Assembly: GCA_900314565.1 (NCBI GenBank)
Contig: OMVU01000014.1
Coordinates: 1 to 46,573, forward strand
Source of the DNA: an uncultured Eubacteriales bacterium
Lineage (GTDB): Bacteria > Bacillota > Clostridia > Lachnospirales > Lachnospiraceae
DNA: 46,573 nucleotides
Direction of reading: 5' to 3'
Shown here one piece after another: positions 26,055-45,712 of this stretch (positions are counted from its first letter, which is position 1; each line of letters starts with the position of its first letter). Made by a program: the position numbers and the translations under genes. A model generated the notes under the pieces. It searched no databases. It had not been told where the DNA came from and saw only the letters and a list, made by a program, of their open reading frames with translations.

Positions 26055-26524
26055 AAAGAGCGGCAGCGGCATAAGAGGCCGGGAACGTGAAACCGCTTTT
26101 GGAATCTTAAAACGAGGCCGAAGGTTTAAGAAATCTTTATTTTATGTACATCGTTGAAGTAATTTCGAATGAAAAATTAAAAAAATCCTGTTGCTTAAGA
26201 TTTATTTAAACAGGTAGAAATTATATTCCGAATGTCATAAAATATAAGTATCTATACTATAAGGCGTACTATGCCCAAAAACGGTATAGACAACATGTAT
26301 CCGTATGGACGGCACAGCCCCGGAAACTGTACCGAAGATCCTGATCGTCAGCTCATTCAATCAGCCGGATGAAGGCAGTCAGGACAGTAACTTATAAACA
26401 CATAGGTCCTTTTGTTTCAGAACACAGGCGTGATACGCAGGCCGGGCGAACGGCAGCCGGGGAGTATCTGTGCAGGGATAAGGGGTTTGGAACAAGAGGA
26501 CGAAAGAAGCACAAGGAGAACCAT
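26055..26524. other. Leader region of the giant surface-protein gene
   Basis: The first 60 bases hold a weak hairpin (AAAAGAGCGG with CCGCTTTT) that may end the TPR transcript. An AT-rich stretch from 26150 to 26270 is the likely promoter region, with TATACT-like words near 26260 but no clear -35 box. The remaining 250 bases would be a long untranslated leader. The start at 26525 has AAGGAG and a signal peptide, so the open frame back to 26369 is not taken as coding. Confidence 0.5.
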
Positions 26525-29500: not shown

Positions 29501-32500
29501 TATGAGGATGACATCTCGGATCTCTTCAACGATGACAAGGAAGATGGTCCTGAAAATCTCGGACCAGGCAGACTGGCCAACGAAGGCACAGAAGGCGCCG
29601 GAGAGACAGATACGACGGACGGGAACGGACAGTACACGATCACTTCCTTTACACAGAAGGACAACGACAAGGATGTAGGTTCCGTATTCTCTGAGAACGG
29701 AAAGGCAAACGAGAACGATACAGTCGTAATCAAAGTCAATCCGGCTTCAGAGTATGAACTGAAAGACGGAACACTGAAATACACCTACACAGCAGACGGA
29801 ACTGAGAAGACAGAGACTGTTGAGAAAACGAACGACACCTACTCCTTCAAGATGCCGGCAGCAGACGTCAAGCTCTCTGCTGAATTCCAGAAGAAGGATG
29901 GTTCCGGCAGCAGCTCAGAGACCAAGTCCTCCAATAATATGTACGGTGCGATCACCTTTACATTTGCAGGAAACTGGAATCTGGTCTATGTGGATACAAC
30001 AGGCGTTCTTTTTGCGAACAAAGGACTTTCTCTCGACGCAAAGGCAAATTCGAAGGTGCTCACGCTTGCGGATGCTTCCAAGGTAACCGAAGCAGCGACG
30101 GAAGCTTCGAAGTCTGACACAGAGAAGAAGGAAGAGAAGAAGAACGAGCAGAGCGGCAATACACCTGGCGGCAATGAAGGCGGCAATACCGAGGGCGGAA
30201 ATTCCGGAAGCAACGAGGAGAAGAAATCCGAAAAGCTCAATCTCGGCGCAGCGATCTCTCTCGGTGTCACCAAGGTTGTCAACAAGGCGTACATCAAGTC
30301 CGGACAGATCTATGCGACCGGACTGGAAATCAAGGCAACGACCGGTTCTGCCGGCACACCGATGACTTCCGTGGTCAAGGCATTTGCAGGAAACGCCAAG
30401 GCGGCGACCGCAATCGGCGGCAGCGTTGCAGTTCAGGTGGTGACAGATAAGACCAGCGCATTCATCGCTAAGGGAGCGACAGTCAATCTTCAGACAGATT
30501 CTCCGCTCTCCGTGAAGGCGGAAGGCTTTGACAAAGTCATTACAGTGGCAGACGGCGCAAGCGCAGGCAAGGGCGAGAAAGTAGGCATCGGCGCAGGACT
30601 TGCAGTAGCGGTCAACGGACAGGATGTCTACAGCGGAATTGAGGACGGAACAGAAATCAAGTCCTATAAGAAGCTTGTCGAAGCAGATGCTTCCAAGGGC
30701 GTCACGCTCGAAGACATTGAAAAAGCAATTTCAGAGAAAATCGAGCTTACGGCTCCGACTCTGTCTGCGGTCGATGTGACAGCGGACCATACAGGCGATG
30801 ACCGTCTCTATGCGACATCCGGTGCGGAAGGCAAGACCGGAATCGCCGGAACACTCGTAGTTCTCTACAGCGGTATTTCAACAAAGGCATACATTGGTGA
30901 AGCCAAAGCAGCGGGCGAGCTTCTCACCGCATCCGGCGATATCAATGTAAAGGCAAATAACAAGCAGACCAGAGAGATGGCAGCCGATGCAACGGCAGGC
31001 GCTTCCAGCACGGGTATTGGCGCGAACCTGCTCATCACGATCGAGAATGACAGCAGCCGTGCTTATACAAAGAGATCTCTCAAGGCGAAGAACATTAACG
31101 TAAAATCCAACTCACAGGTCAAGACAAAGTCACGCAGCCGTTCCAGCGCCAAGGGAGCCAAGGCAGATAAGACCAAGGGCTCTGCATCGGAAGGCGACGG
31201 CTCGGACGGGGCCTCGGATAAAAAAGCGGATCAGGCAGCGAACGGTGCAAGTAATCTGGCAGGCAACGGAACAAGCAACGTCAACAGCGGCGAAGGCAAG
31301 TCACTCACAGCCGGCAGACAGAAGGCAAAGACCTCTGAAGGCAGTGTACAGATTGCCGCAGCGCTTACCGTAAATGTTCAGAAGAACGTATCCGAAGCGA
31401 AGATCCTCGGCGGCGAGACAGTCACGACTATTGACGATCTGAACGTCATTGCTGAGGGCAAGATGGATATCGATGTCCTGGCAAGCGGTGCAGCGACCAA
31501 TTCTACTACAGGCATTGGCGTGGCAGCAGCTGCAGCAGCCGCTACGTATGAGAATGTAGCTTCTGTCGCAGGAAAGATAGTGTCAGCGAAGAATCTGACG
31601 GTAAAGGCCGGATTTAACAGCGCTGCGGAAGACGCGACAAAGACAGACCTGCTGAACACAATGAAGACAGAGGCGATCGCAGGTGCGGGCGCAAAGAATG
31701 TCGGTATTGCAGGTGCGGTGGCAATCGGTGTCGTCAACGGCACGGACAAAGCAATCGTAACGTCAGACAATGAGTCTATTACGGCGGCAGGAAAGCTGGT
31801 CGTAGAGGCAATCGGCGGCCACAAGGAAGAGACAACAGCATCTGCCAAGGCTACCAAGGAAGGCTCTGCCGATAAGAATAAGGAAACAACAGATTCAGCT
31901 GAAACAAAGAAGGAAAGCGGCAACATCGGTATAGGTGCAACTTTTGCACTGGATGTTGTGAACACCGATACGACAGCTGAAGTGAACAGTGCGACTGCAA
32001 AGGGCGTCAGCGTTCTGATCAATGCCGTAGACAGTGACTTCCGTGAGACGACATCTGCCTCCGGTACAGATCCTGTTACGGTCAAGAAGGAAGGCGAAGG
32101 CCAGAATATCAACGGAACAGCAGTTGACGCGACAGTGGCACTCGGCGTCATCGACAATGTGGTCGAAGCAAAAGTCGGAAATAATACAGCTGTATATGCG
32201 ACAGGCGAAGCCCAGGTCGATTCCGATAAGGCAGTGACAGACCGCAAGCTTGATGACAATGCAGAAATCGCCGATGCGGATATCTTCGTAAAGGCGACGA
32301 CGATCAGCAAGGCTGATACAAAGGCCAGCGGTTTTGCTACGGCGGACAACAGCGCGATCGGTGCGGCAGTGGCAATCAATATTGCTTCTTCCGAGGCGAA
32401 CGTGAAGATGAACGGAAGACTCTATGCGAACGGCAACGTGCTCGTCAAGGCATACTCCTATGATGAGGACGACAGCATGGCTCTTGCGACAGCGATCGGT

Positions 32501-35500
32501 GCAGATATGCAGCGCTTCCTGACCAAGTTCCAGAGCGGCGAGTCGGACAAGAAAGAGGAGAATTCCGGAAACAACAACTCCGGAAACAATAACTCCGGAA
32601 ACAACAACTCCGAAGACTCTCAGAAAACGAAGCCGAGCAATCAGAACAATGAGACGGCTACTAACATCAACAACGCACTGAACAAGAACAAGAAGGCAGA
32701 GGGCGAAAATGCTGAAAACGGCAAGTCCCTGTCCCAGAATGCTCTTGGAACACAGGACGCAAAGGCTGAGGGTACAGAGAACAGTACAGTTCAGAATTCG
32801 CAGACGAAAGCCAACGACGCAGCGAAGAATAATTCTTCCCAGGTGAATAATGAAGGCAAGAACAACGACGGCGCGAAGGGTGCAAAACTCCGTGTCGCGG
32901 CGGCGATCGCCCTCAACATCACGTCTCATAAGGCTAATACAGTTGTGACCGGATTGATTTCCGAGAGCAACAAGAACACGGTCGTCGAGGCAATTAATCA
33001 CAGCAACGGAACGACGAAGGGTTCGGCTGCTACAGCTACCATGGCTGACGGCGGCAAGGACAGCTACAATATTTCTCTTGCTGTAGGCCTCAGTGTGAAC
33101 CATAACAAGTCGCTCGTCACGGTCGGTGAGAACAAAGAGGCAGCTCACGTAGAGTCGTCAGGCAATATCATCGTCAAGGCGGAGCAGACACAGAACATGG
33201 ACGGAGCATACAAGGGACTCCTCACGGTCCAGTCAGTGGCCGGAACATCGGCAGGCGGATCCAATTTCGCAATGGCCGGTGCAGTCTCTATCCTGTATGC
33301 CGCAACAGATACGGAAGTAACTGTTGGTGACAACTCCTTCATTATTACCAAGACCGGCGGCAATGTCTCCATCTTCTCAACGGACAAGAGCAAGTATGCT
33401 GTCCGTGCGGCGGGTGTCGAGGCAGGCAGATCGACAAAGGCTGGAATCGGTGCAGCGTTTGACAATGTATATGCTGACGACGTTGTTCGCACAACGATCG
33501 GCAATAAGGTCACCATTTCCGGCAATGACGTATCCATCTATGCGGAGAAGGCAAAGGTAGACTGGTCTGATTACAAGAGCACTTTTGAATTCAGCCACTA
33601 CATCAAATTCACCAAGGACAAGGAAAAGGATGAAAGTGCCCTGATCCACATCAACTACAACAGCAAGTCTTCTGAGAAGAAAGACGAAAACAATTCCGGC
33701 AATAACAACAATAACAATTCCGACAATAACAAGCCGGAGAATAAGACAATCGAGGTCCACAAGAATCTTAAGGATACAGAGAATATCCTTGCGAAACTTG
33801 ATGACCTGAACTTCCTTTCCAGCACCAACTATTATCTGGAGGCTATCTCCGGTGCTATCGCGACAAGCGGTGATTCCGCTGTGTTCGCAGTGGCCGGCTC
33901 CATTGCGCTTCTCTTTGAGAACGTGAAGGTCGAGACGATCCTGGGTGAGGAAGTAACGATCAATGCAGCCAACAATGTACGTATCGAAGCATCTTCTGAT
34001 GTTACCGCAAGGGAGCTGGTCGGCGGCGTATCCTATGACAGCAGCGCAACAGCTACCATCGGCGCTACGGTCGGCGTTATCTCCACGAATAATGTGATCC
34101 GCACAGAAGTGGGTGACAGCGATAAGATCGAAGCGGGCGGTACATATAAGCAGACTTCTTCAGAGATGAATGACAGCCTGATGGTCACCTTCGCGGGAAC
34201 ACATGCTGATAAAGTCTCTGTAGCAGGCACGATTGCGATCGGCGACAATGACGATGACATTTATGCAGGCGTCAAGGACAATGCAAACATTACCTCGAAG
34301 GGTGAGACGGAGATCAAGGCACATCTTGAAAACAATGTGCTTGAGATCGTTGCCACACTTGCAGAGAGTGATAAAGTGGCTGTCGGCGGTGTCATCAATT
34401 ACATGGGCAGCACGAGCAAAACAGCAGTGGAAGCCGGAACTTCTGCTCATATCGAGAGTACGGAAGATGCTGTCAAGCTGACGGCTGAGACTGATGAAAA
34501 TCTGATCAGCATCATCGCAGCTGCTTCGGCGGCAATGGACACTGCACAGGTTGCAGCTGTTCTGAATGTTCTCACATCGGACAGCAAGACCTATGTAAAC
34601 ACAGGCGCATCTGAATTCAAGGCAGCCAAGGATGTTATCATCAAGGCTGACACAGACAGCGATATCGTGACAGTCGATATTACAGCAGGCTACGGCAAGA
34701 AGGTAGCAGTGGACGGTCTTCTTTCCGTCAACGTGCTGAATCGGAAGGTCGCAGCGCTGGTCGGAGAGAATACAACGATCGATGCAGGCGAAAACGCAAA
34801 GATCCTGTCCTCACTGAAAGAGAACGTAGTCATGGTTCTCGTCGCTGTTGCAGGATCGCAGATGATCGGTGTGAGCGGACTTATCCCGATCATCGTTACG
34901 AAGAACATTGTTCGTACAGTGATCGGAAATGCAGATGTGGATGATGCTCTGACAAATGACGGAGATATCAAGAACGCATCGAATGCAGCTACGGTCAAGG
35001 CAGAAGGTTCGATCTACGCGGATTCGACGATCGACTCCGATTCTGTCTTCGTCCAGGTCTCCTTTGCATTTGGAAAGACGGTCGGTGTTGGCGCTACGAT
35101 TTCCACTGTTGTACAGCAGAATATCGCAGATACCATCGTCAACAACTGGGCTGTCCTGAAGGCCATGGCGAAGCTTCCTGCTATCGCGGTCAATAAGCCC
35201 GGAACAGACTCTGAAGGCAAGGAGAGAAAAGACGATAAGACCGGTATTATTCTTTACGCGAATACAAGAGCTGATGTGACAATGGTATCCCTGAGCGGAG
35301 CCGGCGGAAAGACAGCAGCGATCGGCGGAACGATTAATACACTGATCGTGAACAACACGGTCCGTACGCATGTACGCGAAAACTCCACACTGGAATCCGG
35401 TGTTGAACTGGATGAGTGGGCCGATGAAGGCAGCTATGCGGTCGAGGAGCGCGGCAGCGGCAACATCGACGTGGAGGCAGACTCGTACTCAGACATAGTT

Positions 35501-38500
35501 GACGTGGTCGGAGGACTCACCGGAGCACAGACGGCGGCAATCGGTGCAACGGTTGCATACCTTGGTCTGAATACAAAGGTAGAGACGCTGACGAACGCCA
35601 AGTATATGCTTACGAACGGAAAGATCGATGTCAAGGCGCTGATCGAGGATCATCCTTTCCTGTTCAACGTGGCAGGCAGCGGTGCAGAAACAGCTGCTGT
35701 CGCAGGCGGTGCGGCAGTCATTAATGTAGATAACTTCACAAAGGCCGAAGTAAGACAGGTCCTTCGGGCTGACAAGGAAATCACAATCTTTGCCCAAGCG
35801 ACAGAGGATATCATCAATGTCGGTCTCTCAGCATCCGGTGCCGAAACAGCAGCGGTTGCAGCGACCGGTGTGGTGATCAATCTGTATGATGAGACCTTTG
35901 CGAGAATCTACGACGGAGCAGACATCAGAAGCGGCAAAGAAGTAAATCTGAATGCCATAACAAATGCAACACTTGATGGGTTTGCGATCGGTGCTGAAGG
36001 TGCCGGAACAGCAGCAGTCGGCGGTTCTCTCGAAGTAATCGTCTCCGGCGGTTCCACAAAGGCAGTCGTCGGCGCATTTGCAACCATCAGAGGTGTAAAT
36101 ACAACTGCAGAAGAAGATGACAGGACAGGTCCGGTCGTCATTTCGGCAATTGAAAACATCAAAGCACTTGCGGTCGTCGTTACAGTAGGCGGTGCAGGAA
36201 CAGCAGCTGTTGAGATTTCTGCCCTTGTGGCTGTCGTAAATTCGACTGTCAGTGCAGTTGTAGAGGATCATGTAAAGATCCTCAGCAATACAGACGTGAC
36301 TGTTCAGGCAGACGGCAGACGGAGTTTTGAGGGATTCGTATTCTCGATCGCCGGCTCCGGAACTGCATCGATCTCAGCAAATCTTGCGGTCGTAGTGGTT
36401 GGTGCCAAGCTGAATGACGATGCTTACAAAGCAATCTATCAGAAGAACGAAGACGGTTCTTCGGGTGTGGATCCGGTCAAGACATCGTCTTATATTGAAC
36501 GCAACGCAGAATTCAAGCCGATGTCCGGGAAACCGGCAGCTGCAAAGTCTACGACATCCAGACAGAAGGAACTTTCTGCTACCATGACGACTGACGGAGA
36601 ATCTGCAATGAAGATTACGGGTGCGGATAATCCGGAAGGAAATTACGGCAGCTATGGCCAGAATTCCACAAAGGCTTCTGATGGAAAATCTGTCAATGCG
36701 GAGCCCACTGATGAGCAGGCCGGCAAGGCTTCTGAAATCATCGGTAAGTCTACAACGCAGAATGCGGAGAATCTTAAGAACGTCGTGAGCGCAATCATCG
36801 GAGCAGCGGTCATCGACGCGACAGGCAATATCAACGTCAGAGCAGTTGAAGTTCAGTCCAGCCTCTTGATTTCGGGTGCGATCGCAGGTGGCGCCACTGC
36901 AGGAATCGGTGCGAGCATCTCTGTTGAGATCCTGAATTCCGACGTCCTTGCAGACGTTACAGAATATGCATCCCTTACAGCAGGCAAAGATGTCAATGTA
37001 GTGGCATATTCCGGAACGATCAATCCGGACGACAAAAAGAAGTTCACGTACCAGAACCTGAATTTCAACGATTCCTATACATCTGAAAACATCATGAACA
37101 AGGTCAAAGACAAGGATAATAGCGCGAGTGGTTACAAGAACGACGAACTCGGCATCTATGTAATCGGTGTCGTAGTTGGCGGCGGCGGAACAGTTGGCCT
37201 CAGCGCATCGATCTCGTATGTAGGAGTATCCACAGATGTGAGAGCGCTTCTGCAGGGTACGGTCAACAGCGCAGAGAACGTCAATGTTCACGCAAAGTAC
37301 AGCTATGATTCTCTTCACAATATTCTCATAGGAGCTGCCGGCGGTCTGGCTGGAGGAATATCGGCGACTGTCGCCCTTACATTCTTTGACGGAAACGCTG
37401 AAGCGGGAATTACGAAGACAGCTAAAGTTCATAATGTGACAAAAGAAGTATACGTCCATGCAGACGGCGTAGCAGGCATGAAGCCGATCGGAGTTGCTGT
37501 GTCAATTGGAAAAATAGCAGCTGCAATTTCCGTCGCAGTGTCCGTAAACCGTTCTACGGTACAGGCATATGTCGGCATGGGTGCACTGATCAATACGCCG
37601 GAGGCAAATCTCAAAGTCACATCGGATGTGATTTCCAATGCAAAGCCTGTGATCGCAGCAGCGACGGTCGGTCTTGCCAGTGCCAGCATCACTGTCATGG
37701 TTGGCCTCAATGAGGCAAAGAACCTTGCATACATTGGAAGAACACCGAAGGTCGATGGAGCAGAAATCACGGCTGTTGATGGCGCGAACGGCAGAGGCAT
37801 TAACACGATCACAGCGAAGAATGTGGAAGTGAAGGCAAATGCTGAAGCAACTTCTGATCTGCAGAGTTATACATTCGCAGTCACAGGTATCGGTCTGAAT
37901 GGTGCAGTTACAGTTGCGAACTCTAAAGTCGTCAATACGGCGTACGTAGCTGATACGAACATTACGACAGGAGATCTTACGATCACAACGTATCTGAACA
38001 ATAAACTGACTGTCTACTCCCTTGGAGCAGCCGTCTCGGGAGTTAATTTCGGTGTTCAGGTCGCAGTCGGACGGATCAAGAGTATTAACCTGGCTCATCT
38101 GGATACTACAGGTGTTAAGGTCAATGTGACGAACGTCAACGTAAAAGCCGGTGATGCGGATGATAAAAACCGTACGAATGCAAATGTCGATGTCAAGATT
38201 GAGGTCGCTGTTAATATCGGCGGACTTGAACTTGGTGTCAACGTGGCGTACGCAAAGAATGATCTTACAAATATTGCAGAGATCATCGGTGCGAAGACAA
38301 GGACGGCGGAGCCGGCACTTCTGGCAAGCAACGATATCAATGTATTCGCAGGTGCGAACTCCTTTGTCAAAGCTGTTACGGCAAAGGGTCTTGAGGTCAC
38401 TGCAGGCAGCATTTCAGTGAGTATTTCCTCCGCTTATCAGACGGCAACACAGAGAGCGCAGGTCTACTACGGAACGCTTAAGACAAAGAACCTCAATGTA

Positions 38501-41500
38501 AGAACGTTCTATAATTCTGAGACGAACAAGTTCAACAAAGCGGCAGAAGCTTCTTTAGGCACACCGGCAACAGATCGCGGAGCATTCGCGGAAGTCGTTC
38601 AGGGTGCATACGGAGACATAAAGCTTGCTGATATCAGAGTTTCTGTGGCAACAGCTGATTTCGATGCGACTTCCCTTGCATCTGTTTACGGATCCTTCGT
38701 CGATGTTGATGAGACGACGGATGTACATACTGCAGGTGAGTCTTACGCAGAAACAAAAATCAAGATGCCTCCGCTGAAAATCAGCCTTGGCCAGATCGGT
38801 GTAGCTATTTCCAACGCATACGCCAGCGGCAAGTTCCTTGCGGAAGTTGTCATGCAGCATGGTCAGAACCTGACGACGAAGGATCTCTTCACGGCAGTAT
38901 TCTACTCCGCGAAGTCCGACGCGCAGACAGTTCCGGCCGGCGGTGGACTCAACCTTTCGGTCAGCGGTCTTGATATCAGCTACAACCAGTCAAACGCTAA
39001 GACGGATGTAACCGGTGAGGCGGCTGTCAAGAGAGGCGTACATGTTACAAATGATGCAAAGGTATATGTCAATGGCAAGACGTCGTCTTACGCGGGTGTC
39101 GGTGCATATACTGTTAAGATTTCCGGCATTACTGTCAGCGGTACGAAAGTAAAATCCGAAAATTACGCGACGCAGAGAGCACATCTCGATACCGAAGGTG
39201 ATGTGACAAATGTTGACAATAATCTTACGATTAAGAGTGTTTACAATTATCTCGAAGACGATAATTCAAAAGGTGCGACAGCTAAGACCGGCTACAGCGA
39301 TGGTGGATTCAGTGTCAAACTCTCACTGGCTGAATTCACTGATACGGAAGCAACAGCGATCAGCAAAGTCAAAAATGACGCTTATATCTATGAGCGCGGT
39401 GCAGTAGTGGTCAAAAAGGATGCAACAATACTTGCAAATTCCAAGACCAAGGCTTACGGCGATGTCGTTGAAGGCTATAAAGCAGATTTGCTGTCTAACA
39501 CAGTAGTGAAAGTCACAGCTTATACACAGGATACTACGAAAGCATCTACCGGAGATTATCTCATGCTTCTTGTGACAGGAGCATTCAAGATGGAAGCTAA
39601 TTCCAATGCGGCAGGCAATGCATATTCGGTATCTGGAGGAGCCCTGGAGCTCGCCGGTAAGCTGAAAGGATTCGTATCAGCAGGCGTCGGTGATTACTAT
39701 CAGGAAACACCTGGTGTACATATCATGGATCGAGCTGTCTATGATGCGAAGGCTGACGAGGACAATCAGAAGGTAAGAGATCGATATGGTTATGAGCGGG
39801 CCGATACAGTAGTCGGAAAGCACAGCTATATCGAGGCATCCAAGGTCGATATCAACGTGACGAACAATGCAACGACAGATGCAAGTCTCAAGAAGGGATT
39901 TGAGATCAAGATCAAGGGCTCCAGCTATTGTGTCGTTCCGACATTAGTACATACATGGTCGGGAAATGATATCGAAGAAGGTGCAGTAATCGTTGTGACA
40001 ACGGAAAATGCTAACTTTACATCTATCGCTACCGCGAATGCGACGTCAAAGATTTCGAATTCGAGCTTAGGTGCTTCCTTCAAGGGTGACAGAAAGTATC
40101 CGTACAACTTTGTTGGACAGAAAGCATTTATTGAATTCAGCAAAGGATCCTTCGTAGTTGCAGAGAAAGATATCAATGCTACTGCAATGGCCAGCGCTAC
40201 GATCAACGCAGAATCTTCTACCACGATAAAAGATTTCTTTGGCGAAGGACATGCGTATGCTCTGAACATTATCGAGAGAAATATCGATATTGATCTGAGA
40301 GATCAGGCAAGACTCAGAACATATCTGGGTAATGTCAACCTCAAAGCAATAGCTGGTGAAGGCGATAATATTAAAGCCTACTCGATGGAACATAAGAATG
40401 AGCTGTCGTCTGGAGTAGGAACACGTGCTGATAACGTAATTATCAATCACGCGATCATTACGACAGGCAAGAATGCTGAGATTTATGCTCCGTTCGGACA
40501 GGCGAATCTGACGGCTGTGAATGGCGATCTGGATGGCGAAAACAATAAGGTGCTTGCACGTGCGTTCTCGAATATCGGATCCTTCTTATCAGGAGGAGAT
40601 ACATATTCGAATAACTATTACAAGACAGATATTCAGGTGATCATTGACCATACGAATATTATTGCAAGTGACGTGAATCTGAAGGCACTGGAAGGATATC
40701 TGGATCTTCATACAAAGACAGTTCCGGATTCACTGTCGGCATTCTGCTTCGGACTTGGAACATATGCTGACACGAGACTGGAGTTCACGAACAGGGTCTA
40801 TATCCTTAACGGCGCGAATATCAGGGCATACCAGAACTTCAGTGCAGTTGCAAGCGGCGAATCCGGCGATTACGGACACCAGAGCAGTATTCTTACAGAG
40901 ACTGACAACGAAGGTGGCTCCCTCGGCTGGACCAATGGTTATGCATCGCTTAAGGGCGGACAGCAAAACCAGTTCATCCTTGAGAACTCTATTATCTTCG
41001 CGAGAAAAGCAGCTATTAATACCAGCGACTTCGTGAAGGGCGATAAGTTCAAGCAGGGCAATGGCGGTAAGAGAAGAAAAGAGAATCAGTTCGATGAGAA
41101 TGCATCTACTGAAGGAAACGAGTGGGTGGAGAAGTCTCATGAGCTGCAGCTGCAAGAGTGCATTACTGATTCGAACCGTAAGCAGAAAGAGTATGATGCT
41201 GAGATGGCAAGGTATCGTAAAGAGCTGGAAGATGCGGAAAAGGCTACGCCCGGTACGTATACGAAGGAGAAAATCGACGAGCTTTGCGTCCAGCATGGTC
41301 TGAAGATCGCAGAGGACCTTCTTAAGCAGGAGAAAGCCGAAGAGATCCAGAAGAGTAAGGATGATCCTAAGTACAATGCTAATCAGTATTACTATACTGA
41401 GCAGGCAATTGTGCCGGGATCGGAGGCTCCTATCGAGAGTGGTAATAAGAGTGAGATTCTTTTGGTTGGCGAACCGCCCAAGACAGCTATCTACATCGGC

Positions 41501-42598
41501 TCGATTGCGGGTGTTGTGGTCATGACTTATAAGGATAAGGAAGGAAAGACACACGTCAAGAGCAATGGTCTTGAAAAGGATCTTACATTCACAGAGTCCG
41601 GTGATTATGTAACATCAGATTATCCGGTTTATGACGATACAAGTGGTACGTTATATGCGAGTGAGCGGAACCGTCTGGATAAGAACCTCAAGGATAAGAA
41701 TAACAGGCTGGCACAGGCGATCAACAATGTAACAAAATCGTTCAACACCATGTCTGACATTACTTTCCTTGACAGAACTGGAAAGGTGCTTCGTCTGCGT
41801 ACTCCAATATACTTCTTTGAAGTGTACGATTATGACATTCAGTATTCATCTTGGTCAGGTGATTCACCAAAATGGAAGAAGGATACTGATGTGAAGTATC
41901 TGAATAAGAATGAATTCTATGCAGTTCCAGTAGCGGGATTAATCTTTGAAATCAATGCACCTGGTGGCGGTGTATCGCCTTCAGTAACTGCTGTTGCTGA
42001 AAATCGAGCTTTGGTCAGTTATTCCGGTGAACATCTGGACGTATTCAGGGCATATATTGATTCCTCAAGCGGAGCGGATGCATGGAAGACGGAGGTTACG
42101 CGGTATCGCGATAACAAGTCTACAACACCGTCCAATCAGGCTCAGAATCTGGGCGTGGCCAGTGCAGGCTCTTATTACGCAGTCACGGGCAACAGAATGA
42201 ATGAGGACACGATTCGTGAAATCATAGAGAACGTTCGGGTGAATAACAACGACATGCCAAATGATTCGGGAAGACTGAATCAGACAACACCTAATAGCAA
42301 TCCGCCTGTCAGCAGCCAGTCCGGAAACAACGGTAGCAGTACGGCACCGTCGAACGGCTCGTCCGGAAATACTTCTGGCAGCGGCTCCGGAAACGGAACG
42401 AAACCGGGGCAGGATGGTATCAAGGGTAACGGCGATAGCAGTGGAGATGTAGACAAGGATGATGATGCCGGACAGACAGCAACGGCATCTGCGGCAGCTC
42501 CGAACTATCTGGTATTTGGCCTGATAGCAGCGGCGGTAGCAGCAGGATTCTTCTTCATTATCCTTCTTAAGAGACGTAAGGAAGAAGATGAACAGTAA
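26525..42598 (+). CDS. Giant secreted repeat adhesin (5357 residues)
   Basis: A Sec signal peptide (residues 1-32, basic start, cleavage after VFA) is followed by a Ser/Gly/Asp-rich linker (about 40-160), a beta-rich domain with RTX-like pieces (AGDGADDIAL, RGDAGDDTYTID, about 350-390), and two InlB-B/Flg_new-like repeats (about 900-990 and 1035-1125). Roughly 2900 residues of tandem beta-type units follow, each with an (A/V)(A/G)xGGxxxV core, such as SGAETAAVAGG and GAGTAAVGGS, resembling the LktA-type filamentous adhesins of Fusobacterium. A non-repetitive region, a charged coiled-coil-like stretch (about 4860-4950), a Ser/Gly/Asn linker and one C-terminal helix with the basic tail KRRKEEDEQ complete it. 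No LPxTG precedes the helix. Adhesion or biofilm is inferred, not shown. The reading frame is intact over 16 kb. Confidence 0.9.
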   Translation: MAKKKNKRLKVLMAGLIFCLVLNGAMAAAVFASEQDPAVEETAIEESLTGSTEEEGSNSENGNNAGAENAQGSENGSQDDQSGSGGSTGDTETTPSGSGSSDGNSSGQNSGDSGSGSSGSGSDSSGSGQNSGDSGSGSSESGSGSNTSESNAGSPATTTDVSDPENVAEGSASYVENISGGSNSVSEAVKKTNSATPITADESVVTKASESAEVKNAIQLAVDEALKAATSSTDQLTVTVEDGTYDGDITIKKGDGQTLKDDLTLYILASGSYTAAEEGKTITKETITAGAAGGAKVGGNINIDGINVVLAGLYYSLDSKINVKNSKTSVYGTEKADTIHVTLDEGGTIDNVRAGDGADDIALSGKTKTGGTVATLRGDAGDDTYTIDLIETVKEETTTTTTTSENGEGSSGNNETQTPETTPATATVQISDSDKVGTLELTGKLKDENSLTATESNPPTGKRVETTAVESEGTTTKIIAIGISNFTDSLENKKTVEISTLASTYNQELQNCTNYVFKGKVENTTLTKTDGANYYTNFIVKDDGTLTIGNLDAGNANLKLEAEKVVVNGKVKAKTVKIKASDTSDVLIDKELPIEIAGVKKIEAGSAFNFNTATVDVKKGGSITAEKVSIEAETKATIKPEKMLEKYNLNFLAFKSLTSKISIAGLIETTLGNITALAKAALTADEVDNADTAFNARIVLPDAIVEVLDGGVLKAAMDVSLKAVSTVDLFTKAGSTEKLAAAVAIGFVNNDAHVTNKGSIKAGGDVNLDAKASVKATTKAERGSKQSKDTTHGAYIAAGIIIQDASASVEGKGEIIAVGKVNLNSESVENVKTLATSEAAKSAEEGKNENKDTDAENTEKTLKNTKDAAKKGAQENGAGDDKQKKLDELGNKISSGEGKKITAKSTEGVAITADSTAKAGTTVNVTVKAKEGYKVSGATYSYYEPGSATKTTKNLDKVKDGVSGSTGYTFKMPDADVTIEATYTKKNTNDAPYEDDISDLFNDDKEDGPENLGPGRLANEGTEGAGETDTTDGNGQYTITSFTQKDNDKDVGSVFSENGKANENDTVVIKVNPASEYELKDGTLKYTYTADGTEKTETVEKTNDTYSFKMPAADVKLSAEFQKKDGSGSSSETKSSNNMYGAITFTFAGNWNLVYVDTTGVLFANKGLSLDAKANSKVLTLADASKVTEAATEASKSDTEKKEEKKNEQSGNTPGGNEGGNTEGGNSGSNEEKKSEKLNLGAAISLGVTKVVNKAYIKSGQIYATGLEIKATTGSAGTPMTSVVKAFAGNAKAATAIGGSVAVQVVTDKTSAFIAKGATVNLQTDSPLSVKAEGFDKVITVADGASAGKGEKVGIGAGLAVAVNGQDVYSGIEDGTEIKSYKKLVEADASKGVTLEDIEKAISEKIELTAPTLSAVDVTADHTGDDRLYATSGAEGKTGIAGTLVVLYSGISTKAYIGEAKAAGELLTASGDINVKANNKQTREMAADATAGASSTGIGANLLITIENDSSRAYTKRSLKAKNINVKSNSQVKTKSRSRSSAKGAKADKTKGSASEGDGSDGASDKKADQAANGASNLAGNGTSNVNSGEGKSLTAGRQKAKTSEGSVQIAAALTVNVQKNVSEAKILGGETVTTIDDLNVIAEGKMDIDVLASGAATNSTTGIGVAAAAAAATYENVASVAGKIVSAKNLTVKAGFNSAAEDATKTDLLNTMKTEAIAGAGAKNVGIAGAVAIGVVNGTDKAIVTSDNESITAAGKLVVEAIGGHKEETTASAKATKEGSADKNKETTDSAETKKESGNIGIGATFALDVVNTDTTAEVNSATAKGVSVLINAVDSDFRETTSASGTDPVTVKKEGEGQNINGTAVDATVALGVIDNVVEAKVGNNTAVYATGEAQVDSDKAVTDRKLDDNAEIADADIFVKATTISKADTKASGFATADNSAIGAAVAINIASSEANVKMNGRLYANGNVLVKAYSYDEDDSMALATAIGADMQRFLTKFQSGESDKKEENSGNNNSGNNNSGNNNSEDSQKTKPSNQNNETATNINNALNKNKKAEGENAENGKSLSQNALGTQDAKAEGTENSTVQNSQTKANDAAKNNSSQVNNEGKNNDGAKGAKLRVAAAIALNITSHKANTVVTGLISESNKNTVVEAINHSNGTTKGSAATATMADGGKDSYNISLAVGLSVNHNKSLVTVGENKEAAHVESSGNIIVKAEQTQNMDGAYKGLLTVQSVAGTSAGGSNFAMAGAVSILYAATDTEVTVGDNSFIITKTGGNVSIFSTDKSKYAVRAAGVEAGRSTKAGIGAAFDNVYADDVVRTTIGNKVTISGNDVSIYAEKAKVDWSDYKSTFEFSHYIKFTKDKEKDESALIHINYNSKSSEKKDENNSGNNNNNNSDNNKPENKTIEVHKNLKDTENILAKLDDLNFLSSTNYYLEAISGAIATSGDSAVFAVAGSIALLFENVKVETILGEEVTINAANNVRIEASSDVTARELVGGVSYDSSATATIGATVGVISTNNVIRTEVGDSDKIEAGGTYKQTSSEMNDSLMVTFAGTHADKVSVAGTIAIGDNDDDIYAGVKDNANITSKGETEIKAHLENNVLEIVATLAESDKVAVGGVINYMGSTSKTAVEAGTSAHIESTEDAVKLTAETDENLISIIAAASAAMDTAQVAAVLNVLTSDSKTYVNTGASEFKAAKDVIIKADTDSDIVTVDITAGYGKKVAVDGLLSVNVLNRKVAALVGENTTIDAGENAKILSSLKENVVMVLVAVAGSQMIGVSGLIPIIVTKNIVRTVIGNADVDDALTNDGDIKNASNAATVKAEGSIYADSTIDSDSVFVQVSFAFGKTVGVGATISTVVQQNIADTIVNNWAVLKAMAKLPAIAVNKPGTDSEGKERKDDKTGIILYANTRADVTMVSLSGAGGKTAAIGGTINTLIVNNTVRTHVRENSTLESGVELDEWADEGSYAVEERGSGNIDVEADSYSDIVDVVGGLTGAQTAAIGATVAYLGLNTKVETLTNAKYMLTNGKIDVKALIEDHPFLFNVAGSGAETAAVAGGAAVINVDNFTKAEVRQVLRADKEITIFAQATEDIINVGLSASGAETAAVAATGVVINLYDETFARIYDGADIRSGKEVNLNAITNATLDGFAIGAEGAGTAAVGGSLEVIVSGGSTKAVVGAFATIRGVNTTAEEDDRTGPVVISAIENIKALAVVVTVGGAGTAAVEISALVAVVNSTVSAVVEDHVKILSNTDVTVQADGRRSFEGFVFSIAGSGTASISANLAVVVVGAKLNDDAYKAIYQKNEDGSSGVDPVKTSSYIERNAEFKPMSGKPAAAKSTTSRQKELSATMTTDGESAMKITGADNPEGNYGSYGQNSTKASDGKSVNAEPTDEQAGKASEIIGKSTTQNAENLKNVVSAIIGAAVIDATGNINVRAVEVQSSLLISGAIAGGATAGIGASISVEILNSDVLADVTEYASLTAGKDVNVVAYSGTINPDDKKKFTYQNLNFNDSYTSENIMNKVKDKDNSASGYKNDELGIYVIGVVVGGGGTVGLSASISYVGVSTDVRALLQGTVNSAENVNVHAKYSYDSLHNILIGAAGGLAGGISATVALTFFDGNAEAGITKTAKVHNVTKEVYVHADGVAGMKPIGVAVSIGKIAAAISVAVSVNRSTVQAYVGMGALINTPEANLKVTSDVISNAKPVIAAATVGLASASITVMVGLNEAKNLAYIGRTPKVDGAEITAVDGANGRGINTITAKNVEVKANAEATSDLQSYTFAVTGIGLNGAVTVANSKVVNTAYVADTNITTGDLTITTYLNNKLTVYSLGAAVSGVNFGVQVAVGRIKSINLAHLDTTGVKVNVTNVNVKAGDADDKNRTNANVDVKIEVAVNIGGLELGVNVAYAKNDLTNIAEIIGAKTRTAEPALLASNDINVFAGANSFVKAVTAKGLEVTAGSISVSISSAYQTATQRAQVYYGTLKTKNLNVRTFYNSETNKFNKAAEASLGTPATDRGAFAEVVQGAYGDIKLADIRVSVATADFDATSLASVYGSFVDVDETTDVHTAGESYAETKIKMPPLKISLGQIGVAISNAYASGKFLAEVVMQHGQNLTTKDLFTAVFYSAKSDAQTVPAGGGLNLSVSGLDISYNQSNAKTDVTGEAAVKRGVHVTNDAKVYVNGKTSSYAGVGAYTVKISGITVSGTKVKSENYATQRAHLDTEGDVTNVDNNLTIKSVYNYLEDDNSKGATAKTGYSDGGFSVKLSLAEFTDTEATAISKVKNDAYIYERGAVVVKKDATILANSKTKAYGDVVEGYKADLLSNTVVKVTAYTQDTTKASTGDYLMLLVTGAFKMEANSNAAGNAYSVSGGALELAGKLKGFVSAGVGDYYQETPGVHIMDRAVYDAKADEDNQKVRDRYGYERADTVVGKHSYIEASKVDINVTNNATTDASLKKGFEIKIKGSSYCVVPTLVHTWSGNDIEEGAVIVVTTENANFTSIATANATSKISNSSLGASFKGDRKYPYNFVGQKAFIEFSKGSFVVAEKDINATAMASATINAESSTTIKDFFGEGHAYALNIIERNIDIDLRDQARLRTYLGNVNLKAIAGEGDNIKAYSMEHKNELSSGVGTRADNVIINHAIITTGKNAEIYAPFGQANLTAVNGDLDGENNKVLARAFSNIGSFLSGGDTYSNNYYKTDIQVIIDHTNIIASDVNLKALEGYLDLHTKTVPDSLSAFCFGLGTYADTRLEFTNRVYILNGANIRAYQNFSAVASGESGDYGHQSSILTETDNEGGSLGWTNGYASLKGGQQNQFILENSIIFARKAAINTSDFVKGDKFKQGNGGKRRKENQFDENASTEGNEWVEKSHELQLQECITDSNRKQKEYDAEMARYRKELEDAEKATPGTYTKEKIDELCVQHGLKIAEDLLKQEKAEEIQKSKDDPKYNANQYYYTEQAIVPGSEAPIESGNKSEILLVGEPPKTAIYIGSIAGVVVMTYKDKEGKTHVKSNGLEKDLTFTESGDYVTSDYPVYDDTSGTLYASERNRLDKNLKDKNNRLAQAINNVTKSFNTMSDITFLDRTGKVLRLRTPIYFFEVYDYDIQYSSWSGDSPKWKKDTDVKYLNKNEFYAVPVAGLIFEINAPGGGVSPSVTAVAENRALVSYSGEHLDVFRAYIDSSSGADAWKTEVTRYRDNKSTTPSNQAQNLGVASAGSYYAVTGNRMNEDTIREIIENVRVNNNDMPNDSGRLNQTTPNSNPPVSSQSGNNGSSTAPSNGSSGNTSGSGSGNGTKPGQDGIKGNGDSSGDVDKDDDAGQTATASAAAPNYLVFGLIAAAVAAGFFFIILLKRRKEEDEQ
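29220..29900 (+). repeat. Two InlB-B/Flg_new-like repeats within the giant protein
   Basis: Two copies of about 85-90 residues both contain a V(N/I)xTVxVK-type strand, a GYKVSGATYSYY / EYELKDGTLKYTY strand, and end with the hallmark YTFKMPDADVTIEATY / YSFKMPAADVKLSAEF. They are separated by an acidic spacer. The domain is a small beta-grasp-like fold common in cell-surface proteins of Gram-positive bacteria. Confidence 0.75.
32560..32880 (+). repeat. Asn/Ser/Lys-rich spacer with a codon-level NNSG repeat
   Basis: A stretch of about 105 residues interrupts the adhesin units. It starts with three to four repeats of the 5-residue unit NNSGN (15-bp units AATTCCGGAAACAAC-like at 32566-32612) and continues as a disordered Asn/Lys/Glu region. 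A second short Asn run lies near 33690-33740. They look like flexible hinges between folded blocks. Confidence 0.7.
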
Positions 42599-42770: not shown

Positions 42771-44090
42771 TTGGAGCAATTGTTAAAACCGGACTCGATT
42801 GTGATGGGGATGCTCGGAAAGCAGAATGTCGGAGAAAAGGATTATCGCCCATTGACATATGTGTTGTCGGCAGAAGAGGCTAATAAAAAATTATATTACA
42901 ATTTGTTGACACACGAAATAATTTCGATAGATCTTTATGAACTGGAATCGTCAGAAATTAGAAAATATTTGATCGAAAACTGGTACTTGGTTCCAGAAGA
43001 ACAAGATGATCAGCAGTTGGTAGATGAGTGCAGAGCGGTTCTGACATTGATGGATAGCGGGCCCAAAAAGATCCATGTCTTCTATATTTTTACTACACTG
43101 GACTGCAATGCCAGATGCTTTTATTGTTTTGAAAAGCGAATGCCAGGTTCAAACATGACAATGGAGACTGCATCCCAAGTAATTGAGTATATAAAGGAGC
43201 AGGCGGATGGGGAACCTGTTAAGATTGTATGGTTTGGAGGTGAACCGCTTTTTAATTATCCCATTATTGATTTTATATCAGACGGAATACGAGAAAAAGG
43301 ATTGCAGTACGAAGCGATTTTAATTTCGAACGGGTTGCTCTTTGACAGTGATCTTATAGGGAAGGCTAAAAATCTTTGGAATGTAAAAACTGTTCAGATC
43401 ACGTTAGACGGTACAAGAAAAGTCTATAAAAGAGTCAAAGCATATGTGACGGATGTCGGGGATCCGTTTGAGAGGGTGATGCAAAATATAAAAAGCCTCC
43501 TTAAGGCGGAAATAAGAGTAAAAATCAGATTAAATATCGGATTGTATAATTGTAGCGATATGCGGGGGTTAGTAGACTATCTTTGTGAAGAGTTTAAAAA
43601 TCAGGAGAATCTTAATGTTTACGTAAATCCATTATTTGAGTTAATTGAATATACAGTAAATGAGAGAGAATATATGTATGACCTTCAGGATGAGATGGTC
43701 AGTAAGCTGAATCAGGTTTTTGGAAGAAACCAGAAAAAGGAGTTTCCTGATACAATTGCAAACGGCTCATGTATGGCTAGCGGGCGGGAAGCGGTGTCTA
43801 TTCTGCCAGATGGGAAAGTAGGTATTTGTCCGAATATTACCAATGATGGTTTGCTGGGAGATATTTATACGAAAAAGGTAGATGATAAAGTACAAGAGGA
43901 GTTTGGGCGGCGTTTTTACTGGGAAGATAAATGCAGAAATTGTCCTATCTATCCAGACTGTTATATAACTAACGGCTGCCCGAATAAGGATAGTGTAGAA
44001 GGATGTGATCCCATCAAAATACAAAGGCAGATTAAACAGATCCAGGAAAAAATGAAGATGAGATGTAGAAAGATCGTAATCGGGGATTAA
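42771..44090 (+). CDS. Radical SAM/SPASM peptide maturase
   Basis: A 439-residue radical SAM enzyme. C112, C116 and C119 (DCNARCFYC) bind the catalytic iron-sulfur cluster, FGGEPLF (155-161) binds S-adenosylmethionine, and the C-terminal SPASM domain (about 340-425) has the cysteines GSC, GIC, CRNC, DC, NGC and EGC for two further clusters. The first 100 residues resemble the leader-binding N-terminal part of RiPP maturases. Such enzymes make thioether, carbon-carbon or epimer changes in peptides. The start is a TTG with GAAGGTGG upstream. A PqqD-like protein and a small peptide gene follow, so the substrate is most likely that peptide. The DNA here is visibly more AT-rich than the giant gene. 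Confidence 0.88.
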   Translation: MEQLLKPDSIVMGMLGKQNVGEKDYRPLTYVLSAEEANKKLYYNLLTHEIISIDLYELESSEIRKYLIENWYLVPEEQDDQQLVDECRAVLTLMDSGPKKIHVFYIFTTLDCNARCFYCFEKRMPGSNMTMETASQVIEYIKEQADGEPVKIVWFGGEPLFNYPIIDFISDGIREKGLQYEAILISNGLLFDSDLIGKAKNLWNVKTVQITLDGTRKVYKRVKAYVTDVGDPFERVMQNIKSLLKAEIRVKIRLNIGLYNCSDMRGLVDYLCEEFKNQENLNVYVNPLFELIEYTVNEREYMYDLQDEMVSKLNQVFGRNQKKEFPDTIANGSCMASGREAVSILPDGKVGICPNITNDGLLGDIYTKKVDDKVQEEFGRRFYWEDKCRNCPIYPDCYITNGCPNKDSVEGCDPIKIQRQIKQIQEKMKMRCRKIVIGD

Positions 44091-44133
44091 ACAAGATAGT
44101 CTCATATAAGAAGAAAGGCTAAGGGACAGCCAG

Positions 44134-44442
44134 GTGAAATTGAGATACAAATTTGCGACGCAGAAGGTTGGGTCTGGTATTGTTGCAGTGGCAATAGAAG
44201 AGGATGCTCTAAAATACAGTGATATATTGAGAATGAATTCTGCAGGTGCATATATTCTGGAGCAGTTGCAGAATGACATTTCCTATAATGAACTGACAGT
44301 ACGTATGCTTCAAAAGTATGATGCGAAGAAAGAAACGGTTGAGAAAATTCTTATAGATTTTCTGGGCGTGCTATCGGAAAAAGAGCTTTTGTTGGATAAT
44401 AACGGGACCCTTGTTAAAGAGTGTGACATACGAAGGGCTTAA
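44134..44442 (+). CDS. PqqD-type RiPP recognition protein
   Basis: A 102-residue protein of the PqqD family, which folds as a winged helix and binds precursor leader peptides for the modifying enzymes. The pattern ILRMNSAGAYILEQL, then YNELTVRMLQKYDA and VEKILIDFLGVLSEKELL follows the family. The start is GTG with AAGGGAC six bases upstream. It lies 43 bases after the radical SAM gene and is likely on the same transcript. It could also serve the HPr-kinase-like enzyme encoded further down. Confidence 0.85.
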   Translation: MKLRYKFATQKVGSGIVAVAIEEDALKYSDILRMNSAGAYILEQLQNDISYNELTVRMLQKYDAKKETVEKILIDFLGVLSEKELLLDNNGTLVKECDIRRA

Positions 44443-44521
44443 CTTCTTACTTTGTTATAAAAAAGCTTGTATAATAAAGTGTGATTATTAAAGAATTAAG
44501 ATTTATTTTCCTGCTAAATAT

Positions 44522-44529
44522 GATATACT
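44522..44529 (+). promoter_or_regulatory. Promoter of the precursor peptide gene
   Basis: TGA-TATACT is an extended -10 element in an AT-rich gap between the PqqD-like gene and the precursor. Transcription would start about 32 bases before the ATG, and AAGGAG lies between. A separate promoter would allow much more precursor than enzyme, as is usual in RiPP loci. Confidence 0.45.
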
Positions 44530-44567
44530 GAAAAAAAGATAGTTATGTATTTATAAAGGAGTATAAA

Positions 44568-44735
44568 ATGGAAAATCTTGAAAAGTTGGAGATTCCAACA
44601 ATAGAGTTTACAAAGGTCACCCTTTTGAATGGGAATAGTTCTAATGGTTGTACTGGTGCGAATCAGACTCATACGACAACTGGTTCAAACGGTGTTTTAT
44701 GTGAAAACAATACTTGTACAACTCACTTTCAATAA
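44568..44735 (+). CDS. RiPP precursor peptide (55 residues)
   Basis: A short gene with AAGGAG seven bases before its ATG. The N-terminal half (MENLEKLEIPTIEFTKVTLL) is charged and helical, like a leader. The C-terminal half is composed almost only of Asn, Thr, Ser, Gly and Cys, with three cysteines (NGCTG, LCENN, NTCTT) and many threonines, and ends THFQ. There is no membrane helix or GG cleavage site visible; the cut could lie near LLNG. It sits between the PqqD-like gene and the kinase-like gene and is the natural substrate of the radical SAM enzyme. Thioether bridges from Cys and phosphorylation of Ser/Thr are inferences. A degenerate copy of its core follows directly. Confidence 0.75.
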   Translation: MENLEKLEIPTIEFTKVTLLNGNSSNGCTGANQTHTTTGSNGVLCENNTCTTHFQ

Positions 44736-44817
44736 TTCTGATGATTGTATTGGTGAGAATCAGACTCACACGCCAACAGGTACTAACAGTGTTTTATGAG
44801 AAAACGATTATGGTTAA
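44731..44817 (+). pseudogene. Degenerate second copy of the precursor core
   Basis: Directly after the precursor stop, and in the +1 frame, the DNA repeats the core: NNSDDCIGENQTHTPTGTNSVL against NSSNGCTGANQTHTTTGSNGVL. The next codon, Cys (TGT) in the first copy, is TGA here (44797-44799), and the frame ends five codons later. It has no start codon or ribosome site of its own in frame apart from an unconvincing GTG at 44701. It is best read as a decayed tandem duplication of the core. Confidence 0.65.
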
Positions 44818-44904
44818 GTCAGAGTAAATCATAAAGAAGTATGTCGAAATACAGTAGTTAATTATGCAAAACATTGTAAGGAATCGATGAGTTGACACAC
44901 ATTG

Positions 44905-44951
44905 AAGGTGTAAAGGCCTGTAGAGTATGCAGGTTCTTACACCTTCTCTTT
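44905..44951 (+). terminator. Terminator after the precursor region
   Basis: AAGGTGTAA (44905-44913) pairs with TTACACCTT (44937-44945), with an inner CCTG/CAGG stem, followed by CTCTTT. It separates the precursor from the kinase-like gene. Confidence 0.75.
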
Positions 44952-44959
44952 AGTAATAC

Positions 44960-44965
44960 TATAAT
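44960..44965 (+). promoter_or_regulatory. Candidate promoter of the kinase-like gene
   Basis: A perfect TATAAT lies 17 bases after TTACAC, which is part of the terminator arm. Only 12 bases separate it from the ATG at 44978, so transcripts from it would be nearly leaderless. Confidence 0.35.
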
Positions 44966-44977
44966 GGCGGGATTAAG

Positions 44978-45712
44978 ATGGAGGCAATACTTGCAGAACT
45001 CGCAGATTACAAATTCCTAATTCGGGGAAAAGAAACAGGTCTAAAGCGATTCTTCAAAGGGTATGAATCGGAAGGTGAACCGGATTTTTTTATCGCAGTT
45101 ACTGAAGAAGAAATCAGGAGAGAGGAAGTCGAAAACAGCAGTAAAGGCAGATGGAGGTTTACCATGAGTGCAATGGAGTTTTTCGCTATCCAGCGCCAAA
45201 TTGTAAGCCGATTCTCAGGTCATGGAGTTCTCCTCTTCCACGGCTCGGCCATCTGCGTCGACGGCCGAACTTACATTTTCACTGCCCCTAGCGGTACTGG
45301 CAAATCCACACACTCCCGTCTCTGGCGCGAAATGCTCACAGATCATGACGTCGTCATGCTCAACGATGATAAACCATTTCTGAAAGTGGAAGACGGTCGT
45401 GTTACGGCGTATGGTTCGCCGTGGAGGGGAAAGGAAAGCCTCGGTTGCAAAATGTCTGCGCCGGTAGAGGCGATTTGTAGCATTTCCCAGGGATTAAAAA
45501 ATGTCATCAGGGAAGCTACGCCTGAGGAGATGTATCCAATTTTTTATGAGCAGTCTCTTCGCCCATTGGATAAAGAGGGAACAGAGAATCATCTGCGCAC
45601 ACTGGACTTGCTAACGAGAAGCGTTCGACTTTATAAGTATGAATGTAATATGAGTCTGGAGGCCGCCCGTCTGTCGTACGAAACTATGGCTGGAAAGTTT
45701 TCCAAAGAGTAG
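44978..45712 (+). CDS. HPr-kinase-like protein of the RiPP locus
   Basis: A 244-residue protein of the HprK/PEP-carboxykinase kinase fold. The P-loop is FTAPSGTGKSTHSRLW (about residues 107-122), followed by DVVMLNDDKPFLK, the expected metal and catalytic aspartates, and YGSPWRGKE. It lacks the N-terminal domain of true HPr kinases and is the size of the stand-alone kinases found in peptide biosynthesis loci, such as those that phosphorylate lasso peptides. Its position 240 bases after the precursor suggests that it phosphorylates a Ser or Thr of that peptide. Alternatively it is the remnant of a separate PqqD/kinase peptide locus. The first 45 residues have no recognisable motif. Confidence 0.8.
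   Translation: MEAILAELADYKFLIRGKETGLKRFFKGYESEGEPDFFIAVTEEEIRREEVENSSKGRWRFTMSAMEFFAIQRQIVSRFSGHGVLLFHGSAICVDGRTYIFTAPSGTGKSTHSRLWREMLTDHDVVMLNDDKPFLKVEDGRVTAYGSPWRGKESLGCKMSAPVEAICSISQGLKNVIREATPEEMYPIFYEQSLRPLDKEGTENHLRTLDLLTRSVRLYKYECNMSLEAARLSYETMAGKFSKE

Follow-up and report, generated by a model that had tools for sequence, protein, structure and literature searches.

Locus and gene content

We describe a compact gene locus near one end of a 46,573-nucleotide stretch of DNA (the window) from an uncultured Eubacteriales bacterium of the family Lachnospiraceae, in which four plus-strand open reading frames (ORFs) of the ORF list, within positions 42771-45712, encode a radical S-adenosylmethionine (SAM)/SPASM-type maturase, a PqqD-like protein, a 55-residue precursor and an HprK-like kinase (Table 1). 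The window is the entire contig C128 (OMVU01000014.1; 46,573 bases) of an assembly with 191 contigs and 4.2 Mb, and 861 bases are left between the end of the kinase gene and the contig end. Judged by its gene content and by comparison with a related locus, this is a real cassette for a ribosomally synthesized and post-translationally modified peptide (RiPP), and its combination of kinase, PqqD and radical SAM genes is not unique. From the features set out below we consider it probable that its one precursor receives both a radical SAM modification and a phosphate, with the PqqD protein presenting it.

The four-gene RiPP locus described by the original prediction, with its PqqD-type protein, radical SAM enzyme, precursor with leader and core, and HprK-like kinase, lies where that prediction placed it and recurs in one close relative, locus L001 (contig CAMOXU010000002.1, from an uncultured Clostridia bacterium whose genome is counted in the window’s genus). 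L001 came from a genome-collection scan with the maturase, a type of scan confined to close relatives, and was the one relative returned, 69% identical. Its gene order—surface protein, maturase, PqqD protein, 51-residue ORF and kinase—is that of the window, its PqqD-like protein and kinase are 67% and 75% identical to those of the window, and the TTG start of the maturase and the GTG start of the PqqD gene are found there also. All four main ORFs are intact in both loci, and kinase and precursor are linked in both (2/2). At the DNA level, the two loci align from the 3′ end of the surface-gene region through the maturase and PqqD genes to the ribosome-binding region and the leader; homology stops after the leader and restarts at the kinase start.

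Table 1. Coordinates of the features of the locus within the window.
Feature	Position	Strand	Properties and evidence
Radical SAM/SPASM-type peptide maturase	42771..44090	+	439 aa, TTG start; Pfam Radical_SAM; 69% to L001
PqqD-like protein, discrete RiPP recognition element (RRE)	44134..44442	+	102 aa, GTG start; Pfam PqqD; 67% to L001
Precursor (55 aa), whole ORF	44568..44735	+	ORF list; leader match in L001
Precursor leader MENLEKLEIPTIEFTKVTLL	44568..44627	+	16/20 residues as in L001
Precursor core and stop, Cys/Thr/Asn-rich, 3 Cys	44628..44735	+	16% identity to L001 core
Second copy of core sequence	44731..44808	+	83% of 44634-44711, different frame
Hairpin, precursor-kinase interval	44904..44946	+	Inverted repeat, folding energy
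HprK-like (lasso-kinase-type) kinase	44978..45712	+	244 aa; 75% to L001, motif residues, family profile
Surface-protein ORF (context only)	26369..42598	+	5409 aa, C-terminal membrane-like segment, then terminator-like hairpin

The precursor peptide

The 55-residue ORF is, on comparative grounds, not a chance ORF, because its leader, its place in the locus and the ribosome-binding region ahead of it are shared with L001 and because the changes are biased to third codon positions: 16 of the 20 leader residues are identical (phmmer E=4.3e-7), with 11 of 14 base differences at third positions. The core is another matter: identity falls to 16% over 31 aligned codons, the DNA alignment is not convincing, and only S-S, one Cys and the following x-G line up, near the leader. 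The precursor is thus conserved as the original prediction asked, in its leader, and the core cysteines and threonines, three Cys among them, are not conserved as positions. A conserved leader, a diverged core and homology resuming at the kinase are together the signature of a RiPP precursor, and a conserved leader with a variable core beside modifying enzymes is what we find here, with two loci as the basis. The leader motif is FEIP (aromatic-x-x-P) in L001 and LEIP in the window.

A second copy of 78 nt of core sequence, 83% identical, lies 97 nt further on and is out of frame owing to that offset; a TGA replaces a Cys codon of the first copy. It was also recovered as a separate match in a precursor-profile search and could be a decayed second core. 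Of the other matches of that profile, a weak one in G743 (L202; E=0.0066) we regard as chance, and the genus search gave no maturase hit for G743 at E<=1e-20; another, in G726 (E=0.06), lies inside a long open frame. A match in the L001 genome (G755:C104, E=0.47) was set aside.

The maturase and the PqqD-like protein

In the maturase, which has a Pfam Radical_SAM match (E=2.2e-14), Cys112/116/119 form a CX3CX2C motif. The three radical SAM cysteines are accordingly present as first noted, as are the three core cysteines and the intact P-loop of the kinase. For the SPASM domain that had also been noted, the cysteines stand and the profile falls marginally short: Cys334, 353, 388, 391, 397, 403 and 412 are kept in L001, and the Pfam SPASM match scores 21.2 bits, just below the cut-off of 21.5. 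By its CX3CX2C motif and auxiliary-cluster Cys the protein is a radical SAM/SPASM maturase. Its best NCBIfam models are TIGR04463, Clo7bot, FlmE/OhkG, CefB, geopeptide and PapB, all far below their cut-offs, the first at 123.6 bits with a curated cut-off of 525; its sole sequence match in the PDB at E<=0.001 is 5wgg (E=7.7e-11), which we take to be the thioether-forming SCIFF maturase CteB.

Maturase relatives are few. Of the 42 genomes of the genus, the window’s own among them, 5 have matches: the one in G754 is the L001 locus, and identity does not exceed 35% in the others. In the order, a search of 392 genomes at E<=1e-50 added just G662. In the family, 13 of 397 sampled genomes, again counting the window’s own, have relatives at E<=1e-20. 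A scan of viral contigs with the maturase alignment gave no relative. PqqD-like genes lie near relatives of the window maturase subtype in L121, L134 and L135, and weakly in L136 (14 bits); in L018 the PqqD-like gene is on the other strand, and in L017 it is recognised by resemblance only. The PqqD and radical SAM relatives of L134 and L135 directly adjoin an ABC-2 permease (by Pfam in L135, by resemblance in L134), and L134 also has an ATP-binding cassette (ABC) ATPase with a sub-threshold Wzt_C match, an arrangement as in polysaccharide export. L136 (4537-8827) combines a maturase relative with a 42-residue YxxP peptide, the weak PqqD-like match, a glycosyltransferase and a second radical SAM gene.

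The PqqD-like protein of the window matches Pfam PqqD at E=7e-9 (36.3 bits, cut-off 23.4) and, weakly, NCBIfam lasso_PqqD_Bac (E=6.7e-5), and it is a discrete RRE of the PqqD type.

The kinase

Taken alone, the kinase sequence has no Pfam match at E<=0.1, only weak NCBIfam matches (ScmC E=0.0055, HprK_rel_A 0.023, HprK_rel_B 0.061), and a single-sequence search of the PDB with it found no kinase. A profile of 25 family members, the window kinase included, places HPr kinase/phosphatase first in the PDB (1ko7, E=4.6e-5), with the His, the P-loop and the Asp-Asp pair aligned to the HPr kinase structures; Pfam Hpr_kinase_C is matched at E<=0.01 by 5 of the 25 members, the window kinase not among them. 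The motif residues are H88, G106-x-G108-K109-S110 and D130-D131, and the nine invariant columns among the 25 kinases include H88, G106, G108, K109 and D131. Lasso peptide kinases carry a His-Lys-Asp-Asp motif (PMC9266682), which in BsfK comprises H148, K169, D186 and D187 (PMC10368454). We liken the window kinase to them because its His, P-loop Lys and Asp-Asp match the reported motif; by position count, the first Gly of the BsfK motif is A103 in the window kinase. With the His, the P-loop Gly, Lys and Ser and the Asp-Asp present, and a relation to HPr kinase by family profile, it has the features of a PadeK/BsfK-type kinase.

Kinase relatives in the family

In the family sample of 397 genomes, the window’s own among them, 87 have kinase relatives at E<=1e-6. 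The loci surveyed around them are a part of these matches, chosen roughly by rank, and some are cut by contig ends; a neighbour was counted if it lay within 3 kb on the same strand, fusions were included in the radical SAM count, and some loci (e.g., L110, L111, L119) also stood in the PqqD match list. Around 67 surveyed kinases a PqqD-like gene occurs at 44, a radical SAM gene or fusion at 26 and both at 19; counting the duplicate L142/L143 once, the figures are 43, 25 and 18 of 66, and for all 79 kinases, window and L001 included, they are 55, 28 and 21, with neither at 17. The four-gene neighbourhood is kept in L001, and the combination of kinase, PqqD and radical SAM genes is far from singular (19/67). 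The radical SAM genes at these loci are mostly of another, shorter subtype than the window maturase. At L142:695-2560 and L143:6211-8076, kinase and radical SAM are joined in one 621-residue ORF whose protein is the same in both assemblies; Pfam places Radical_SAM at residues 290-430 and, at 19 bits and under the cut-off, Hpr_kinase_C at residues 95-154. A PqqD gene and a 78-residue YxxP-leader peptide lie near by. Such a fusion is a strong hint that the kinase and radical SAM activities have a common substrate.

In a midpoint-rooted tree of the 73 of 79 kinases that passed limits on score, length and motif, radical SAM linkage is clustered, with 7 label changes (6 forced by starred branches) against a shuffled mean of 21.1; several of the 7 changes may be one gain plus losses. 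One side of the tree, of 29 rows, holds 21 of the 25 radical SAM-linked kinases. The other side (44 rows) contains the fusion of L142/L143 together with the kinases of the window and L001, in a 17-row group (support 98/94) whose remaining 13 rows are without radical SAM. Because the window kinase thus groups with kinases otherwise lacking a radical SAM gene, the simplest reading of the tree is that kinase and radical SAM enzyme were united independently in the window cassette, a separate assembly.

Candidate precursors bear on the target of the maturase. ORFs with an aromatic-x-x-P leader make up 25 of 148 same-strand candidates in radical SAM-linked loci versus 3 of 66 on the opposite strand, and at least two Cys occur in 21 of 24 distinct aromatic-x-x-P candidates of radical SAM-linked loci versus 3 of 14 others (Fisher p=7.9e-5). 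Since the linked candidates are longer on the whole, we also compared those of 60 residues or less, in which at least two Cys occur in 5 of 6 linked candidates versus 1 of 12 others. These counts take in every distinct pattern match, L001 included, with probable non-precursors among them (136- and 94-residue ORFs of L119; ORFs of L106, L148, L151 and L168); the window precursor stands outside them because it has LEIP, without an aromatic residue, and two of the three Cys-rich cases without radical SAM (L120, L161) lie on stretches cut by ends. Cys content tracks radical SAM linkage among the candidate precursors, which points to Cys as the radical SAM target.

The loci with kinase and PqqD but no radical SAM gene contain ABC exporter, NTP_transf_5 and signal-peptidase-like genes (tested in L103; by resemblance in L104, L109, L112 and others), and short Cys-poor YxxP peptides in L103, L104, L112 and L144, with no lasso cyclase noticed. 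L110 lies beside a Wzz gene, and L103 and L104 resemble, by eye, polysaccharide regions. The genome of the window has a second kinase-PqqD locus, L109 (G000:C142), where Pfam finds NTP_transf_5 and an ABC-like gene is seen by resemblance; the exporter of this second locus might serve the window peptide.

Proposed mechanism and alternatives

In the mechanism we propose, the PqqD-like RRE protein would bind the 20-residue leader of the 55-residue precursor and present the peptide to two enzymes, the radical SAM/SPASM maturase and the HprK-like kinase; the maturase would join the sulfur of a core Cys to carbon, probably forming a thioether, the kinase would move a phosphate to a Ser or Thr hydroxyl, and both enzymes would act on the same peptide. 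By analogy, the logic would be that of the lasso systems, the lasso cyclase being replaced by a radical SAM enzyme, and export and leader removal would be encoded elsewhere or past the contig end.

Several observations weigh against this picture. Only one close relative was found. A C-terminal Ser, though it is the site used by PadeK-type kinases, is absent from both cores, window and L001. Of the 67 kinases surveyed, 41 lack a radical SAM gene within 3 kb, so that the kinase can do without such a gene, and in the loci without radical SAM the aromatic-x-x-P leader shows no enrichment (14/274 on the same strand, 13/134 on the opposite strand), so that the leader pattern alone proves nothing there. 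The type of bond made by a radical SAM enzyme is not readable from sequence, and structure models of kinase and maturase, built from two-row alignments, were too poor to use (mean predicted local distance difference test scores of 34.7 and 46.2, respectively).

One rival reading concerns the bond: the enzyme may make something other than a thioether (a carbon-carbon or ether cross-link, or an epimerisation), the Cys serving another purpose. Radical SAM peptide enzymes are chemically diverse, the best NCBIfam score of the maturase is far below its cut-off and many unlike radical SAM families score too; we nevertheless hold this reading to be rather unlikely, given that the top-scoring families include maturases of Cys-rich peptides (the Clo7bot and PapB ranthipeptides), that the sole solved relative is presumably a thioether-forming enzyme, and that Cys content tracks radical SAM presence in related loci.

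A second rival grants a RiPP unit made up of maturase, PqqD protein and precursor, and makes the kinase a neighbour with another substrate, whether another peptide or an HPr-like protein. It draws first on the interval between the two genes, a gap of 243 bp with a hairpin in it, which also counts against a joint cassette. In the window the hairpin folds at -26.2 kcal/mol for an 81-nt stretch (z=-3.6) and is not terminator-like in a consensus scan; its counterpart in the same interval of L001 folds at -30.5 kcal/mol (z=-6.4), has a U-tract behind it and resembles a terminator. Just ahead of the kinase, a promoter-like match (44936-44965) could serve the kinase alone, such matches numbering 11 observed versus 9.7 in shuffles. 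Because of the hairpin, the kinase may be transcribed at a lower level, or separately. The rival is further favoured by the kinase group of the window, mostly without radical SAM otherwise, by the second kinase-PqqD locus in the same genome, and by the distant maturase relatives, around which none of 19 stretches (L017-L029, L121, L134-L138; several cut by contig ends) has a kinase match. We judge it rather unlikely all the same, as the gene order is kept in L001, PqqD and radical SAM genes recur at kinase loci (44/67 and 26/67), and radical SAM linkage is found in more than one kinase group and as a fusion.

That the phosphate is an intermediate, with the phospho-Ser/Thr eliminated or decorated with sugar instead of kept, seems improbable to us: NTP_transf_5 genes occur in some related loci (L103, L109 and L121, by Pfam) and the nucleotidyltransferase homologue PsmN provides a precedent by adding hexoses on phosphorylated Ser (PMC9266682), but reading the ORF lists of the window and the L001 stretch by eye turned up no lyase or nucleotidyltransferase, no profile search having been made there. 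That the locus is decaying and has no product is very improbable, for although the second core copy has lost the frame and contains a TGA, two genes have non-ATG starts, a transposase-like gene lies within about 260 bp after the kinase in L001, and non-synonymous exceed synonymous changed codons in the maturase (137 vs 111) and PqqD gene (34 vs 26; raw counts), the four main ORFs are intact in both genomes, the catalytic residues are kept, and synonymous changed codons exceed non-synonymous ones in the kinase (83 vs 60) and leader (9 vs 4).

Extending dual modification of one precursor beyond the window, we suggest tentatively, and with more doubt than conviction, that there is a class of RiPPs cross-linked at Cys and phosphorylated by HprK-like kinases, one RRE serving both enzymes, which was assembled more than once independently in the family, once as a fusion, and of which the window would be a minimal four-gene example.

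Relation to known systems

Radical SAM cross-linking is documented for other RiPPs. Kinase tailoring is documented for lasso peptides (PMC9266682, PMC10368454): PadeK and ThcoK phosphorylate their precursors at a C-terminal Ser (PMC9266682), and BsfK phosphorylates Ser3, a reaction accelerated by a PqqD-like B1 protein (PMC10368454); for one PqqD-like B1 protein, nanomolar binding of its leader is published (PMC5067487). An earlier mining paper notes an HPr kinase within lasso clusters of anaerobes (PMC4289311). In a rumen survey, lasso clusters come with genes for HPr kinase, PqqD and nucleotidyltransferase, and several of the lasso leaders given there carry WITP, WNTP or YNKP (PMC7533575), to which the FEIP of L001 and the LEIP of the window may be compared. 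Like these paeninodin-type systems (PadeK/ThcoK/BsfK), the window has a PqqD-like protein and an HprK-like kinase with His, Lys and Asp-Asp; unlike them, it has a radical SAM maturase and a precursor with Cys and without a C-terminal Ser, and inspection by eye of the window and L001 ORF lists, with no profile search, revealed no lasso cyclase or B2 protease. The idea of a lasso peptide was dropped on that by-eye result. No lasso cyclase, transporter or protease was visible in the original prediction, nor did we see one in the window on inspection by eye. For transporter and protease the lack partly reflects the end of the contig: the window spans all of C128, and whether either lies past 46573 is beyond judgement.

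With the ranthipeptide and sactipeptide systems (PapB, Clo7bot, SCIFF, TIGR04463) the window shares a radical SAM enzyme with SPASM-like Cys and a Cys-containing precursor; it differs in reaching the cut-off of no named family and in having a discrete PqqD protein and a kinase. An already named cassette of this kind is SynChlorMet (NCBIfam ScmC, ScmD, ScmE, ScmF), which by its model names has radical SAM/SPASM proteins and a PqqD-related protein (SCM_PqqD_rel), like the window. ScmC, presumably itself HprK-like, is the best named match not only of the window kinase but of several kinase relatives. Because this cassette is already named in NCBIfam, the combination of kinase, PqqD and radical SAM is not categorically new. 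The window has one radical SAM gene where SynChlorMet has two, and it does not reach the SynChlorMet cut-offs (ScmC 16.1/125, ScmE 48.4/400, no ScmD match at E<=0.1); no paper using the name was found in the literature searched.

Within the family, loci L148, L159, L160, L164, L165, L173, L176, L178 and L180 combine a radical SAM enzyme of about 360-415 residues with PqqD and an HprK-like kinase, and like the window they have kinase, PqqD and radical SAM on one strand with a Cys-containing peptide, there with an aromatic-x-x-P leader. They differ from the window cassette in mostly having the other radical SAM subtype, another kinase group and often longer cores. A convincing aromatic-x-x-P Cys peptide was not found in other such loci, L163, L166, L167, L171 and L174.

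We found no paper reporting phosphorylation and a radical SAM cross-link on one peptide in a search that left most subscription journals outside. If the dual modification is real, it would mean a class of phosphorylated, cross-linked peptides in Clostridia, and the four genes would make a small, testable system in which to study how a single leader-binding protein works with two enzymes unrelated to each other.

Neighbouring genes

A very large repetitive surface protein is encoded directly upstream of the cassette in both species (26369-42598 in the window, 29-7846 in L001). We considered it as a substrate of the cassette and dropped the idea: a terminator-like hairpin lies behind it, and only its position ties it to the enzymes. 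Far from the cassette, at 3312-5214, the window encodes a macro-domain protein followed by a DarT-type single-stranded DNA ADP-ribosyltransferase (Pfam), a DarTG-like toxin-antitoxin pair.

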